Of a stretch of DNA of 34,044 bases, positions 22,234-28,342 are shown in pieces (position 1 is the stretch's first letter; each line of letters starts with the position of its first letter). The DNA comes from Sphingomonadales bacterium (GTDB lineage: Bacteria; Pseudomonadota; Alphaproteobacteria; Sphingomonadales; Sphingomonadaceae), in the NCBI GenBank assembly GCA_027485485.1, contig JAIXQY010000040.1:1-34044 (forward strand), given 5' to 3'. The notes under the pieces are model-generated. The model did not search any database, had not been told where the DNA came from, and worked only from the letters and a program-made list of their open reading frames with translations. The position numbers and the translations under genes were made by a program.

Positions 22234-23841
22234 TCAGGCCGCTTTGGGAGCCGATTCGCGCACGCCCTGATCGACATGGGCTTCGAACTGGACGAAATTG
22301 GCGATGAACATGCCGACCAGCTTCTTGGCCTGCGCGTCATAGGCCGCCTTGTCGGCCCAGGTGTCACGCGGGTTCAGGATGGTGGCATCGACGCCGGGCA
22401 CCGAGACCGGCACGGCGAAACCGAAATTCTCATCCATGCGGAAATCGGCAGTGTTCAGGCTGCCATCGAGCGCGGCGTTGAGCAGCGCGCGGGTGGCCTT
22501 GATCGGCATGCGGGTGCCCGTACCGCCGGTGCCGGCGCCGCCGCCGGTCCAGCCGGTGTTGACCAGCCACACATCGACGCCGCCCTTGGCGATGCGCTCC
22601 TTGAGCAGATTGCCATAGACCGACGGGTGGCGCGGCATGAACGGCGCGCCAAAGCAGGTTGAGAAGGTGGCATCGGGTTCGGTGACGCCGATTTCGGTGC
22701 CGGCGACGCGGGCGGTATAGCCCGACAGGAAGTGATACATGGCCTGATCCGGCGTCAGCTTGGCGATCGGCGGCAGGATGCCGAAGGCGTCGGCCGTGAG
22801 CATGATGATGTTGCGCGGCACCGGGCCCATATTCTCGGCCGAGGCGTTGGGGATGAACTCGATCGGATAGGAACCGCGGCTGTTTTCGGCCAGGCTGTTG
22901 TCGTCCAGATCAATCTTGCGGGTGACGGGATCGATCACGACATTTTCCAGCACCGTGCCAAAGCGGCGGGTGGTGGCATAGATTTCCGGTTCGGCTTCGG
23001 CCGAAAGCCGGATGACCTTGGCATAGCAGCCGCCTTCGAAGTTGAAGACCGCCGTGTCGGACCAGCCATGTTCATCATCGCCGATCAGCGTGCGGCTGGC
23101 ATCGGCGGACAACGTGGTCTTGCCGGTGCCGGACAGGCCGAAGAAGATTGCGGTATCGCCATTCGGGCCAATGTTGGCCGAACAGTGCATCGGCATCACG
23201 CCCGATTGCGGCAGCAGATAATTCAGGATGGAGAAGACGGACTTCTTCATTTCGCCGGCATAGGCGGTGCCGCCGATCAGCACGGTCTTGGCTTCGAAAT
23301 CCACCGCCACCACGGTTTCGCTGCGGCAGCCGTGGCGGGCCGGATCGGCCTTGAAGCTGGGCAAATCGATGATGGTGTATTCCGGCAGGAAATCGGCCAG
23401 ATCGGCGAGGTCCGGGCGCACCAGCAAGGTGCGGATGAACAGGCTGTGCCAGGCAAATTCGGTGATGACGCGCACCTTCACCCGGTGTTCTGGCTGCGAA
23501 CCGCCAAACAGATCCTGCACGAACAGGTCGGTCTTGGTGGCGAGCGCGGCCTGGAAATCGGCCTTGATCGCGGCGAACTGCGCCGGCGTGATGCTCTTGT
23601 TCTTGTCCCACCAGATGGCGTTTTCGGTGGCGGCGTCGCGCACGATGAACTTGTCATTCGCGCTGCGGCCGGTGTGCTTGCCGGTCTTCACCACCAGGGC
23701 GCCATGTTCGGAGAGCAGGCCTTCGCCGCGCTGCACCGCCAGTTCCACCAGCGCGCCGGTCAGCAGGTTCCAGTGCAGGGTGGCGGGCGTTTCATAGCCT
23801 TGGGCAGCAAGGCTGTGGCTGGAAATCACGGTCGACGGCAC
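22234..23841 (-). CDS. pckA: Phosphoenolpyruvate carboxykinase (ATP)
   Basis: Converts oxaloacetate plus ATP to PEP, CO2 and ADP, the committed step of gluconeogenesis from organic acids. I choose GTG 23841 (535 residues, the usual family length) because a consensus AAGGAG lies exactly 7 bp upstream (23854-23849). The longer frame's MTRR start would sit on that same site. Conserved blocks: [10 protein letters not shown], the kinase loop [14 protein letters not shown] (P-loop), DDEHGW, and [13 protein letters not shown] with the RxxYP arginine. The gene is divergent from chvI. In many alphaproteobacteria pckA lies beside chvI-chvG and the HPr kinase genes, consistent with control of gluconeogenesis by that module. 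Confidence 0.97.
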
Positions 23842-23848
23842 GACATTT

Positions 23849-23854
23849 CTCCTT
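23849..23854 (-). promoter_or_regulatory. Ribosome-binding site deciding the pckA GTG start
   Basis: Minus-strand AAGGAG, a full match to the anti-Shine-Dalgarno core, with a 7-nt spacer to GTG 23841. An ATG at 23859, in the same frame, begins upstream of this site and would have no ribosome-binding site of its own. Confidence 0.8.
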
Positions 23855-23918
23855 GTCATGGGGCCCCCACAGCCCCGATCCGCATGCGCGGCAGCTTGAA
23901 CGGCCACCGGATGGCGGC

Positions 23919-23947
23919 GGCATATCGCACGCATACGTATTCGTCAA
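23919..23947 (-). promoter_or_regulatory. Candidate pckA promoter with internal palindrome
   Basis: Minus strand TTGACG (23947-23942), a 17-bp spacer, TATGCC (23924-23919). This is a good sigma-70-type layout, predicting a leader of about 70 nt. The spacer contains the 8-bp palindrome ATACGTAT (23933-23940), a plausible operator. The region is shared with the divergent chvI gene, so a regulator bound here could affect both. Confidence 0.5.
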
Positions 23948-24027: not shown

Positions 24028-24771
24028 ATGGACAACAATGTGCCGCCAGCCCCAACCATTGCCCTGGTTGATGATGATCGCAACATCCTCACCTCGGTGT
24101 CGATTGCGCTGCAGGCCGAAGGCTATGCCGTCCGCCTCTATTCCGATGGCGACAGCGCGTTGAAGGCGCTGCTGGAAAACGCCCCCGATTTGGTGGTGCT
24201 GGATATCAAGATGCCGCGCATGGACGGGATGGAGGTGCTGCGCCGCCTGCGCGAGAAAAGCCAGGTGCCGGTGATTTTCCTGACCAGCAAGGACACCGAG
24301 ATTGACGAGGCGCTGGGCCTGGCCATGGGCGCCGATGATTATATCGGCAAGCCGTTCAGCCAGCGCCTGTTGATCGAGCGCATCCGCGCCGTGCTGCGCC
24401 GCACCGCCAACCGCCGCGCGGCCGAGGCCGAACCCGAAGCCGCAGCGGCGGTGGAGCCCATCGTGCGCGGCCGCCTGACCATGGACCCGGCCCGCCACCG
24501 CGTGTGGTGGGATGGCGGCGATGGCCGGCGCGGCGACGTCGCGCTGACGGTCACCGAATTCATGATCCTGGAAACGCTGGCGGCCCGGCCGGGCTTCGTG
24601 AAATCACGCGACCAGTTGATGGATGCGGCCTACAGCCATGATGTGTATGTTGATGATCGCACCATCGACAGCCACATCAAGCGCCTGCGCAAGAAATTCC
24701 GGGTTGTCGACCACAAGTTCAAGGCGATCGAAACGCTGTATGGAGTCGGCTACCGCTTCAATGAAGACTAG
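24028..24771 (+). CDS. chvI: Response regulator, OmpR/PhoB family (ChvI)
   Basis: DNA-binding output of the ChvG-ChvI two-component system, which in alphaproteobacteria responds to acid or envelope stress and links to carbon metabolism. The ATG at 24028 follows GGTGGGG and gives 247 residues. The receiver domain (about 10-125) has the acidic IALVDDDRN cluster, the phospho-acceptor Asp59 in [12 protein letters not shown], a switch Thr in IFLTSKD and the conserved Lys in YIGKPF. After an Ala/Glu-rich linker comes a winged-helix domain (about 150-247) with the recognition segment [16 protein letters not shown] and the C-terminal YGVGYRF. It overlaps chvG by 11 bp. The name rests on the chvG/hprK/pckA neighbourhood plus the domain type. 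Confidence 0.93.
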
Positions 24772-26323
24772 GCCGGTGCGGCGTGCCGAGGATGCGGTGC
24801 ATGAATGGCGCCGCAACCTGGGCTTTGCGTCGCTCAGGGCGCGCATCTTTGCGGTGAACCTGGTCGCGGTGATCGTGCTGGCGATCATGCTGCTGTATCT
24901 CGACACGGTGCGATACCGGCTGCTGGCCGAACGCACCGATGCGCTGGCCAACGAGGCGGCGGCGGTGGCCCAGATGCTCAGCCGGCAGGAGACCGACCAG
25001 CGCGCCCGCGCCATCGATGGCCTGGGCCTGGCGCGCGGCGCACGGTTGCGGCTTTATGCCGGCGATGGCGTGCGATTGGCCGACAATTGGCAGAACCCGC
25101 GCAACCCGCGCTTCATCGTCGAAGATCCGCAGGCCTTTGGCTGGCGCCGGGCATCGGCCAAGACCATCGATCGGGTGCTGGATGCCGTGCTGGGCTTCCG
25201 CGATCTGCCGGCCTATGCCGAACCGGCCGCCGATGCGGCGGGGCGCTGGCCCGAAATTGCCGTGGCCCGCAAAGGTGGCCAGCCCGCCACCGGCCTGCGC
25301 CGGGCGCGCGATGGCAGCCTGCTGGTTTCGGCCGCCGCCGTGGCGCCAACCGGCGAAGCGGTGCTGCTGATCGATTCGGCCGAGGATCTGGCCGAACTGC
25401 TGCGCCGCGAGCGCCTCACCTCGGGCTGGCTGTTGCTCAGCGTGACGGCGCTCACCCTGTTCCTGTCGCTGTTTCTGGCGCGCACCATCGTGCGGCCGCT
25501 GCGCATGCTGGCGATTGCCGCCCATCGCGTGCGGCTGGGCCGCCGCCGCGAGGTGGTGGTGCCGCGCCTGCCCGACCGGCGCGACGAGATCGGCGCCCTG
25601 GCCCGCGCCATTTCCGACATGTCCATCGCCCTGCGCCGCCAGATCGATGCGACCGAGGCGTTCGCCGCCGATGTGGCGCATGAGCTCAAAAACCCGCTCG
25701 CCTCCCTGCGCTCGGCGGTGGAGGTGCTTGAACAGGTGGACAAGCCTGACCTGCGCGCGCAGTTGCTGGCGGTGATCCGCGATGATGTGGGCCGCATCGA
25801 TCGGCTGATCACCGATATTGCCGATGCCAGCCGGCTGGATGCCGAACTGTCGCGCACCGGGTTCCAGCCGGTTGATCTGGCGCGGCTGTGCACCGGGCTG
25901 GTCAGCGCCTATGGCATCACCGATCTGCCGCGCGGCGTGGTGGTTGGGCTGGTGCCGCCGCCCCCGTTGCTGCCGCTGATCGACGGCGATGCCGGCCGGC
26001 TGGCCCAGGTGCTGCGCAACCTGATCGACAATGCCATCAGCTTTTCGCCCGATGGCGGCCGCGTGGAACTGGCGCTGGCGGTGGCGGGCGATCATGTCGA
26101 ACTGACCCTATCCGATGATGGCCCCGGTGTGCCGGCGGCAAACCGCGGCGACATCTTCAAGCGCTTCTATTCCGAACGCCCGGCGGCAGAGGATTTCGGC
26201 CGCCATTCCGGCCTGGGCCTGTCAATCGCCGGGGCCATCGTGGCGGCGCATGGCGGCAGCATCACGGTGGCCGATGCGCCGGGCGGCGGGGCGCTGTTCC
26301 GCGTGAGCCTGCCGGTGGCGTGA
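24761..26323 (+). CDS. chvG: Sensor histidine kinase (ChvG)
   Basis: Inner-membrane sensor kinase partner of ChvI. ATG 24761 lies inside the end of chvI and gives 520 residues; the longer open frame upstream is chvI read out of frame. TM1 is at about 29-48 ([18 protein letters not shown]). A periplasmic sensing region of about 175 residues follows, then TM2 at about 225-245 ([19 protein letters not shown]) and a HAMP region. The HisKA motif [18 protein letters not shown] carries the phospho-acceptor His307. The HATPase domain has the N-box [11 protein letters not shown], the DDGPGV box and the G-box [17 protein letters not shown]. Its TGA shares a base with the next ATG (TGATG), coupling it to the HPr kinase fusion. 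Confidence 0.94.
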
Positions 26324-27669
26324 TGGCCGCTGAAACCATCCACGCCACCGCGGTGGCCCAGGGCGGCCGCGCCCTGCTGTTGCTGGGGCCGGCGGGCAGC
26401 GGCAAATCCGATCTGGCGCTGCGGCTGGTGGCGGCCGGCTGGCAACTGGTTGCCGATGACCGGGTGGTGCTGGCCCGCGACGGCGACCGACTGATCGCCA
26501 GTGCCCCGGCGCGGCTGGCCGGCCTGATCGAGGTGCGCGGCGTTGGCATCGTGCCACAGGCGACCCATCCGGCCATGGTGGCCCTGGCGCTCGATCTCGC
26601 CCGCGCGCCGGACCGGCTGCCGGCACCGGACTGGCTGGGCCTGGCCGGCGTGGCGGTGCCGGTGCTGGGCTTTGATCCGTTCGGCGCATCGGCGGTGGAA
26701 CGGGCGGCGCGGGCCTTGGCGAATCATGGCCTTGATGGCAGCAGTCTGCCCGTGCAACCGATCCTGATCGTCACCGGCCTGTCGGGCGCCGGCAAATCCA
26801 CGGTGCTGAAGGCGCTGGAGGATGCCGGGCACGAAGTGGTCGACAATCTGCCCATCGGCCTGCTCGACGGGCTGTTGGCCGCTGCCGCGCCGCGCCCGAT
26901 CGCCCTGGGGCTGGACAGCCGGACGCGGGCCTTTGATGCCAAGGCGCTGGCGGCGCGCGTGCTGGCCCTGCGCGATGCCGGGCGCGATGTGCGGCTGGTC
27001 TATCTGGATTGCGCCGATGATGTGCTGATCCGGCGCTTTTCCGAAACCCGCCGCCGCCACCCGCTGGCGCTGGACCGGCCGGCGATTGATGGCATCAAGG
27101 CCGAGCGCGACCTGCTGGGCCAGTTGACGCGCAGTGCCGATGTGGTGATCGATTCCACCGATCTTTCGGTCACCGATCTGCGCGCCCGGGTGACGGAGCG
27201 GTTTGGCGGCGGCTTCTCGCCGGGGTTGACCGTGACAATGTTGAGCTTCGGCTTTTCTGCCGGGCTGCCGCGCGAAGCCGATCTGGTGTTCGACATGCGC
27301 TTTCTGGCCAATCCGCACTGGGATGCCACGCTGCGACCGCTCACCGGCGAGGATGCGGCGGTGGCGGCCTTTGTGGAGGCCGATCCGCTCTATGCCGGCA
27401 CACTGGCGCGCATCGATGATCTGATCCAGAGCCTGCTGCCCGGCTATGCCCAGGAGGGGAAATCCTATCTCACCATCGCCATCGGCTGCACCGGCGGCCG
27501 GCACCGCAGCGTGGCGGTGGCGCGGGCGCTGACGGCGCGACTGGCCGCCGCCGGTCAATCCGTGGCGCTGGTGCATCGGGATATCGCAAAACAGGCCGGC
27601 GATGCCGCGGTGGTGGCAGGCGCCCCATTGACAGACTCGGGCAAAGCGGGTGAGGCCAGCAACCGATGA
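26323..27669 (+). CDS. HPr kinase/phosphorylase - RapZ fusion protein
   Basis: One open frame of 448 residues joins two proteins that are normally separate. Residues 1 to about 137 form the short alphaproteobacterial HPr kinase (hprK) catalytic domain: P-loop GPAGSGKS (22-29), LVADDR (42-47) and the signature GLIEVRGVGI (67-76). Residues 144 to 448 are a complete RapZ (YvcJ/YhbJ): P-loop GLSGAGKS (152-159), VVDNLP, LDSRTRAF, RRFSETRRRHPL, FGFSAGLPREADLVFDMRFLANP and GCTGGRHRSVAVA. HPrK (de)phosphorylates HPr on serine; RapZ binds nucleotide and, in E. coli, directs small RNAs to RNase E for glucosamine-6-phosphate control. The linker is six or so residues. GTG 26752 could restart RapZ, but I see no ribosome-binding site. 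It overlaps the EIIA start by 4 bp. Confidence 0.9.
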   Translation: MAAETIHATAVAQGGRALLLLGPAGSGKSDLALRLVAAGWQLVADDRVVLARDGDRLIASAPARLAGLIEVRGVGIVPQATHPAMVALALDLARAPDRLPAPDWLGLAGVAVPVLGFDPFGASAVERAARALANHGLDGSSLPVQPILIVTGLSGAGKSTVLKALEDAGHEVVDNLPIGLLDGLLAAAAPRPIALGLDSRTRAFDAKALAARVLALRDAGRDVRLVYLDCADDVLIRRFSETRRRHPLALDRPAIDGIKAERDLLGQLTRSADVVIDSTDLSVTDLRARVTERFGGGFSPGLTVTMLSFGFSAGLPREADLVFDMRFLANPHWDATLRPLTGEDAAVAAFVEADPLYAGTLARIDDLIQSLLPGYAQEGKSYLTIAIGCTGGRHRSVAVARALTARLAAAGQSVALVHRDIAKQAGDAAVVAGAPLTDSGKAGEASNR

Positions 27670-28067
27670 TCGGGTTGGTATTGGTGACGCACGGCAATCT
27701 TGCCGTGGAGTTCAAGGCGGCGATGGAGCATGTCGTCGGCGTGCAGTCGTGCGTGGACACCATCTGCATCGCGGCGGAAGACGATATGGAATTGCGCCGC
27801 GCCGATATTGCCGCCGCGGTGAAGAATTGTGACGGCTGCAAGGGCGTCATCATCCTCACCGACATGTTCGGCGGCACGCCTTCGAACCTCGCCATCTCGC
27901 TGCTCGGCCCGCAGGTGGAAGTGATCGCCGGGGTGAACCTGCCGATGCTGATCAAGCTGGCCAGCGTGCGCAAGACCTATACGGTGGAAGCCGCCGTGCA
28001 GGCTGCCCAGGATGCCGGGCGCAAATATATCGCGGTGGCCAGCCGTATGCTGGGCGAAGCGGCTTGA
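27666..28067 (+). CDS. PTS EIIA component, mannose/fructose family (regulatory PTS)
   Basis: Cytoplasmic phosphoprotein that accepts a phosphate from HPr. The 133-residue product is a single EIIA-Man domain: MIGLVLVTHGNLAVEF with the phosphorylated His9, the GVIILTDMFGGTPSNLA block at about 60-76 and the NLPMLIKLA segment. There is no IIB, IIC or IID partner in the window, so it is a regulatory rather than sugar-transporting PTS component, as is usual in alphaproteobacteria (often called ptsM or manX). The ATG overlaps the HprK-RapZ stop by 4 bp and the stop overlaps the HPr start by 4 bp. Confidence 0.94.
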   Translation: MIGLVLVTHGNLAVEFKAAMEHVVGVQSCVDTICIAAEDDMELRRADIAAAVKNCDGCKGVIILTDMFGGTPSNLAISLLGPQVEVIAGVNLPMLIKLASVRKTYTVEAAVQAAQDAGRKYIAVASRMLGEAA

Positions 28068-28342
28068 GCGGGGCCGTTGGCCCGGTTCGGGTTCCCATCA
28101 CCAACCGCCGCGGCCTGCACGCGCGGGCCAGCGCCAAGTTCGTCACCCTGGCCTCCGGCTTTGATGCCGACGTGACGGTGAGCCACGATGGCTCATCGGT
28201 GACCGGCACCTCGATCATGGGCCTGATGATGCTGGCCGCCGCCATGGGCGACGAGATCGAGATCAGCGCCACCGGCGCGCAGGCCGAGGATGCCGTGGCC
28301 AAGCTGACCGGCCTGGTGCTCGACAAGTTCGGCGAGGATTGA
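28064..28342 (+). CDS. ptsH: Phosphocarrier protein HPr
   Basis: Carries phosphate from enzyme I to EIIA, and is also a substrate of HPr kinase. The 92-residue product has the catalytic His19 in RRGLHARASAKFV and the regulatory Ser50 in TGTSIMGLMMLAA; the 31-residue spacing equals the His15-Ser46 spacing of classical HPr. Ser50 makes it a plausible target for the HPrK domain encoded two genes upstream. The start is TTG at 28064, overlapping the EIIA stop (TTGA); no ATG or GTG lies between there and the conserved VPITNRRGLHA. No enzyme I gene is in the window. A pair of REP-like palindromes follows the stop. Confidence 0.94.
   Translation: MSGAVGPVRVPITNRRGLHARASAKFVTLASGFDADVTVSHDGSSVTGTSIMGLMMLAAAMGDEIEISATGAQAEDAVAKLTGLVLDKFGED

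Follow-up and report, generated by a model that had tools for sequence, protein, structure and literature searches.

The locus studied here encodes an HPr kinase (HprK) and RapZ in one reading frame, which raises the question of whether it yields a single fused protein, or whether RapZ is also produced alone from a start codon that lies inside the frame. We addressed this question within a window of Sphingomonadales DNA, by which we mean the whole stretch of 34,044 nucleotides that was analysed, and in the corresponding loci of related genomes.

The fused frame and its gene neighbourhood

In the open-reading-frame reading of the window, the frame runs for 448 codons without interruption, and Pfam and NCBIfam matches divide it into a short HPr kinase and a complete RapZ, as an earlier note made from the sequence alone had described (Table 1). 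The match to Hpr_kinase_C is partial, covering residues 4–77 (profile positions 7–81 of 171), and the kinase module scores 60 bits against PF07475, where the cut-off is 33.3. It carries a Walker A motif GPAGSGKS (residues 22–29), an aspartate pair DD (45–46) and the signature LIEVRGVGI (68–76), with the family signature (I/L/M)E(I/V)RGxG found at residues 69–76 together with Walker A and DD; residues G27, K28, S29, D45, D46, E70 and R72 are common to all 34 fused rows scored. Because the module is short, it scores under the cut-off of the NCBIfam full-length HprK model. The RapZ part reaches 320.7 bits against an NCBIfam equivalog cut-off of 244, with both Pfam domains present, and the whole fused protein has a single match in its own genome. 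An AlphaFold model from a 35-row alignment contains two confident modules (mean pLDDT 89.5, pTM 0.54), and the modest pTM would leave the relative arrangement of the HprK and RapZ modules unfixed. Foldseek matched the model to E. coli RapZ (5o5o, 8b0i) and to HprK/P (1kkl, 3tqf). Judged from its sequence, HprK-RapZ is a recurrent domain architecture built of known parts, and the fusion is not named in the titles and abstracts returned by literature searches that covered few subscription papers.

Table 1. Coordinates of the features at the fused locus, in positions of the window
Feature	Position	Strand	Remarks
Sensor histidine kinase, in chvG place	24623..26323	+	Longest possible ORF start
Fused hprK-rapZ reading frame	26323..27669	+	448 aa; ATG start, TGA stop
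HPr kinase module, residues 1–132	26323..26718	+	Pfam, conservation, fold match to HprK/P structures
−35-like hexamer TTGGCG (TTGGCA in near kin)	26716..26721	+	36 nt before internal start; weak in window
Linker, residues 133–143	26719..26751	+	AlphaFold pLDDT <50 at 139–143
−10-like stretch CAGCAG/AGCAGT	26739..26745	+	Poor in window
Internal GTG, residue 144	26752..26754	+	At ancestral RapZ start position; alignment of fusions
RapZ module, P-loop GLSGAGKS	26752..27669	+	RapZ-N 147–296, RapZ-C 303–421 (Pfam)
manX, mannose-family EIIA	27666..28067	+	
ptsH, HPr	28064..28342	+	RGLHARAS histidine site; SIMG serine site, Ser50, codon 28211–28213

The genes follow the order response regulator, sensor histidine kinase, hprK-rapZ, EIIA-man and HPr, in keeping with the operon-like row containing EIIA and HPr that had been noted before. 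The ATG of the fusion overlaps the stop codon of the upstream sensor kinase (TGATG), and its TGA overlaps the ATG of manX (ATGA). A gene for PEP carboxykinase lies on the minus strand at 22237–23934, upstream of the response regulator; in the matching Brucella operon, PEP carboxykinase is likewise described on the opposite strand upstream (PMC9491525). For Alphaproteobacteria, a review describes the chv genes, hprK, manX and ptsO together (PMC13104625).

The fusion is general in its genus and recurs beyond it

We took the genus of the window to be Sandarakinorhabdus, which gave the best matches among named contigs. Of its 24 genomes, 20 carry the uninterrupted fusion, two (G403 and G409) carry in-frame fragments of it at contig ends, and two (G398 and G408) match RapZ only, having lost hprK. 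In related genera, both genomes of g72 are fused; the six genomes of g63 comprise two with fused genes, three with separate genes and one without a match, and the three genomes of g4 comprise one fusion, one fragment and one without a match. At the level of the family, 393 of 397 genomes have a match, and 16 of the 75 loci examined are fused (11 in the genus, 5 outside). A named genome collection contributed 12 fused loci of 80 (L031–L040, L042 from Fodinicurvata, and L043). The class survey found a match in 285 of 385 genomes, with 5 of the 57 loci examined outside the family being fused (L132, L136, L138, L148 and L206). Since the family and class loci were picked for a high score, a spanning match or a long open frame, fusions are over-represented among them and these counts are not true frequencies.

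RapZ was placed in a tree of 212 rows, of which 33 are fusions; the duplicates L031–L040, L131 and L233–L236 were omitted from it, as were L128, L129, L229 and L230. The tree requires seven changes between the fused and separate states, at least four of which are forced by well-supported branches (quick method). Given these forced changes and the occurrence of the fusion in other families, sequence comparison indicates that the fusion is general in the genus of the window and recurrent beyond it. The statement that hprK and rapZ are separate neighbours in relatives holds for most of the relatives examined, and the search for the same architecture across Sphingomonadales that the earlier note had suggested has thus returned a recurrent one. 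That a sequencing or assembly error joined two genes is vanishingly improbable: the same architecture recurs across a large number of independently obtained isolates and metagenome assemblies, named Sandarakinorhabdus isolates among them, and the in-frame junction in many independent assemblies rules out the junction indel that would have explained the fusion away.

The linker stays open

Across the genus, the 22 genomes carrying hprK are all free of stop codons and frameshifts between the modules. In the other two frames stop codons are common: the 28 sphingomonad linkers contain 22 of them in frame +1 and 8 in frame +2 (L113 and L124 share genome G404, and the 28 fused loci therefore represent 27 genomes). 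Stop-free linkers as general evidence for fusion were set aside as circular, because 'fused' was defined by an open linker; only the genus data count here. Since all 22 of these genomes are open while out-of-frame stops are common, the genus data favour translation through the linker, to the extent that related species can.

These observations bear on the reading in which a promoter of its own drives RapZ, and passive read-through yields a long protein that is scarce and without function, the open linker being simply tolerated. Such an arrangement would sit well with the two genus species that kept RapZ after losing hprK, and with g63, where fused forms occur beside separate ones. We nevertheless consider it distinctly unlikely, as the linker carries neither stop nor frameshift in the genus (the relatedness of the species limits the weight of this point), out-of-frame stops are frequent, and the RapZ tree implies four or more changes between the fused and separate states.

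The HPr serine site follows the presence of the kinase

The motif around the target serine of HPr was compared between loci with and without HprK. Counting distinct HPr sequences only, all 118 from HprK loci (32 fused, 86 separate) have the serine motif with G or S in the fourth position, and HprK-bearing loci keep SIMG, SILG or SIMS. The two genus species that the survey of 24 genomes identified as hprK-less have DIME instead. At L056, where no HprK was found nearby, the motif is SIME; at L088, a locus that is cut off and starts inside rapZ, it is SIMG. In the family, 13 genomes are without a PF07475 match, and HPr was searched in eight of these, the other five being 66–84% complete; seven of the eight have SILD or AILD, and G017 gave no HPr match. 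Seven genomes with weak PF07475 matches have SILD too. In the 13 searched genomes with a good PF07475 match, by comparison, the HPr site has no acidic residue, and this includes G283 and G147, which are congeners of kinase-less genomes. The acidic residue that accompanies kinase loss, at the HPr target serine or at +3 (DIME, SILD, AILD), is found at L121, L122, L257, L259–L263 and L265.

With the loss of the kinase, serine phosphorylation looks to have been repeatedly replaced by a fixed negative charge that would act as a phosphomimetic. The two hprK-less genus species are sisters in the RapZ tree, nested among fusions, and for that reason a single event probably accounts for the HPr change in both. 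Their gene orders differ: one has rapZ directly after the sensor kinase, and the other has rapZ-manX-ptsH without a preceding sensor kinase. Because the serine motif is intact with HprK and acidic without it, the comparison speaks for a functional kinase module in loci that retain the motif, fusions among them. A short HprK is the usual form in Alphaproteobacteria, and these enzymes are described in PMC2937029 as missing ∼130 N-terminal residues and as being without the C-terminal region important for phosphorylase activity; the same source describes that the Brucella HprK phosphorylates the NPr serine in vitro.

A start codon is kept at the ancestral beginning of RapZ

The linker of every sphingomonad fused locus compared contains an ATG or GTG (28 of 28, not counting the twice-fetched copies L031–L040, L131 and L233–L236), and in 21 of the 28 it stands exactly 11 codons past the HprK match. 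When 27 fusions are aligned, all 25 residues in the start column are encoded by ATG or GTG (19 GTG, 6 ATG), and the two rows that are gapped have a GTG one codon upstream. Valine in this column is encoded by GTG in all 19 cases and never by GTC, GTT or GTA, against a background in which GTG makes up 56% of the Val codons in the fused genes. On the tree the start column has undergone two codon changes, between GTG and ATG only, compared with 8–18 in each of the 11 full linker columns (145–149 and 155–160) between the TTG column described below and the start. The codon columns exclude L029, and the codon-change counts additionally exclude the contig-end fragments L123 and L124. Separate relatives begin rapZ at a comparable place; at L017, for example, two codons separate the hprK stop from an ATG that lies 12 codons past a conserved Ala-Leu. 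Taken together, the comparison provides good evidence that the inner start has been preserved in the sphingomonad clade.

These data have to be weighed against an obligate fusion, in which the 47-kDa protein is the only product, and the Met or Val residue and the TTG owe their conservation to requirements of the protein or of codon use, such as a pause in translation between the two domains. No Shine-Dalgarno sequence was evident by eye before the GTG, in agreement with the earlier note's statement that no ribosome-binding site precedes it, and this would suit an obligate fusion. So would the non-sphingomonad fusions, of which only three of seven have a linker ATG or GTG: L042, L043 (with a TTG instead), L136 and L138 lack one, and at these four loci RapZ seems to be made as a fusion only. 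L136 (G436) and L138 (G566), one of them from a single-contig genome, have linkers without ATG, GTG or TTG, and are apparently obligate fusions. For the sphingomonad clade itself, the exclusive use of GTG for valine in the start column and the freely changing linker before it speak against this reading, and the sequence further upstream, described next, has the same bearing.

A promoter-like stretch precedes the internal start

In 23 of 27 rows the conserved Ala-Leu has TTG as its Leu codon, and in most rows this TTG stands 36 nt ahead of the start. TTG is a minor Leu codon (11.6% of Leu codons), and among the 40 remaining Leu columns its share does not exceed 36%. By codon-change count, four further Leu columns equal the TTG column. 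The four exceptional rows, with CTG at this Leu, have a five-codon insertion that carries TTGGCA at −36, and the distance from TTGGCA to the start is consequently held across the insertion, though the Leu codon that is TTG in other rows is CTG there. More distant fusions, of the outer clade, have TAGAAA, TAGAAG or TAAAAG ending 5–8 bases before the start. L029 has a similar arrangement, TTGGCA-N18-TAGAAG-N8-ATG, in another codon phase. The spacing kept across the insertion and the change of codon phase at L029 count against an obligate fusion, and the weak promoter match in the window itself counts in its favour; on balance we regard an obligate fusion as unlikely, while giving it more room than passive read-through.

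Pairs resembling TTGACA and TATAAT before in-frame ATG and GTG codons were scored to a maximum of 12, with a threshold of at least 8. In the 35 fused loci, this score is reached by 33% of 51 junction starts, compared with 0% of the 353 codons within RapZ and 0.4% of the 240 within HprK; in 164 separate loci the figures are 12% of 224 at the junction versus 1.3% of 1784 and 1.7% of 958. These comparisons are tempered by the fact that the scored sequences are also the ones that suggested a promoter, and by the non-independence of related species. The window's own internal site scores 6 of 12, among the weakest, and a generic promoter and terminator scan of 26200–28200 found nothing. At separate junctions TATAAT is mildly raised, occurring in 24 of 164 loci compared with 17.1 in shuffles; in the two coding controls the counts were 6 and 9 of 164.

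The promoter-like signal is not unique to rapZ, because manX starts score nearly as high (mean 6.8 for 26, versus 7.4 for 28 internal starts; the hprK start has a mean of 4.1). A perfect TTGACA lies at 27628–27633, 38 nt before the manX start and within the disordered RapZ tail, and was seen at 19 of 28 loci, made up of 19 of the 26 that are fused and neither of the two hprK-less ones; manX may have its own promoter too. Leaderless transcripts are common in this class, with 375 leaderless mRNAs reported for Caulobacter (PMC4117421) and 119 leaderless pairs of transcription start site and gene for Zymomonas (PMC7566282), and most of the alphaproteobacterial promoters analysed in PMC8407463 are described as lacking −7T while keeping the −35 TTG.

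The earlier note had proposed that the fusion ties kinase and RapZ together at 1:1 stoichiometry. This is doubtful, because the internal start is kept at all 28 loci, promoter-like sequence is enriched before it, and RapZ occurs without HprK in two congeners.

Discussion

Considering these lines of evidence together, we find it fairly probable that the locus gives two products, the fusion from an operon mRNA and RapZ alone from an internal start of the leaderless type. Most likely, the fusion originated through loss of the hprK stop codon ahead of an in-frame rapZ. An operon mRNA covering the sensor kinase, hprK-rapZ, manX and ptsH would be read from 26323 to give a 47-kDa HprK-RapZ, whose kinase module would phosphorylate the serine of the neighbouring HPr and would be tethered by the flexible linker to the sugar-phosphate sensor RapZ. 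A second mRNA, leaderless or nearly so, would begin within the gene and yield RapZ alone, of ∼33 kDa, from the GTG or ATG. The evolutionary extension of this reading is that selection has maintained the promoter and start of a once-separate gene inside the fusion, providing an operon-controlled fusion together with a free sensor from a leaderless promoter, and here our confidence is slighter, leaning only a little towards it.

What RapZ contributes can be considered in light of E. coli, where exchange of K270, K281, R282 and K283 is reported to abolish RNA binding (PMC7073468). In the present protein K281 is kept (K423), and the other positions are Q412, Q424 and A425 (the alignment to E. coli ends at R282/Q424). 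The absence of three of the four residues concerns an sRNA role and not membership of the RapZ family. The authors of PMC7073468 also describe the RNA-binding domain as confined to Enterobacteriaceae. The earlier note had connected the fusion with RNase E, a RapZ partner in E. coli, and the RNase E gene is indeed present elsewhere in the window; with the RNA-binding residues mostly absent, this connection is weak, and control of sRNAs through RNase E as in E. coli is considered unlikely. E. coli RapZ is also described as binding glucosamine-6-phosphate and activating the two-component system QseE/QseF, and the same authors speculate that control of a two-component system was the primordial role of RapZ (PMC7073468). 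By analogy, the two-component system encoded beside the fusion may be a target of RapZ here. The likeliest function of the fusion would be to couple the sensing of amino sugars or nucleotides by RapZ to the phosphorylation of the HPr serine, beside the two-component system, and free RapZ would serve partners that are out of the fusion's reach.

On our reading of the literature, the role of RapZ outside enterobacteria is not settled, and the recurrent joining of HprK and RapZ suggests that the two act together. If two products are made, two promoters would set the ratio of bound to free RapZ, and the retained internal start would make the locus a natural example of a gene fusion whose parts remain available on their own. 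Species with the fusion and species that have lost the kinase occur in one genus and provide a ready comparison.

Among known systems, the kinase module resembles the short HPr kinase of the Brucella type as described in PMC2937029, with the same loss of the N-terminal domain, the Walker A, DD and signature motifs, and similar neighbours (a two-component system, EIIA-man and NPr/HPr); unlike that kinase, it is covalently joined to the RapZ behind it. The second module has the complete N-terminal P-loop and C-terminal domains of the RapZ/YvcJ family, as in E. coli RapZ (5o5o, 8b0i), from which it differs by the kinase module in front and by lacking three of the four RNA-binding residues. The closest parallels for the proposed expression are IF2 and CheA, where an in-frame internal start gives long and short forms from one frame. 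In the same manner, the internal start described here would give the C-terminal part alone; in contrast to IF2 and CheA, the shorter product would here correspond to an ancestral, once-separate gene that retained its promoter through the fusion.
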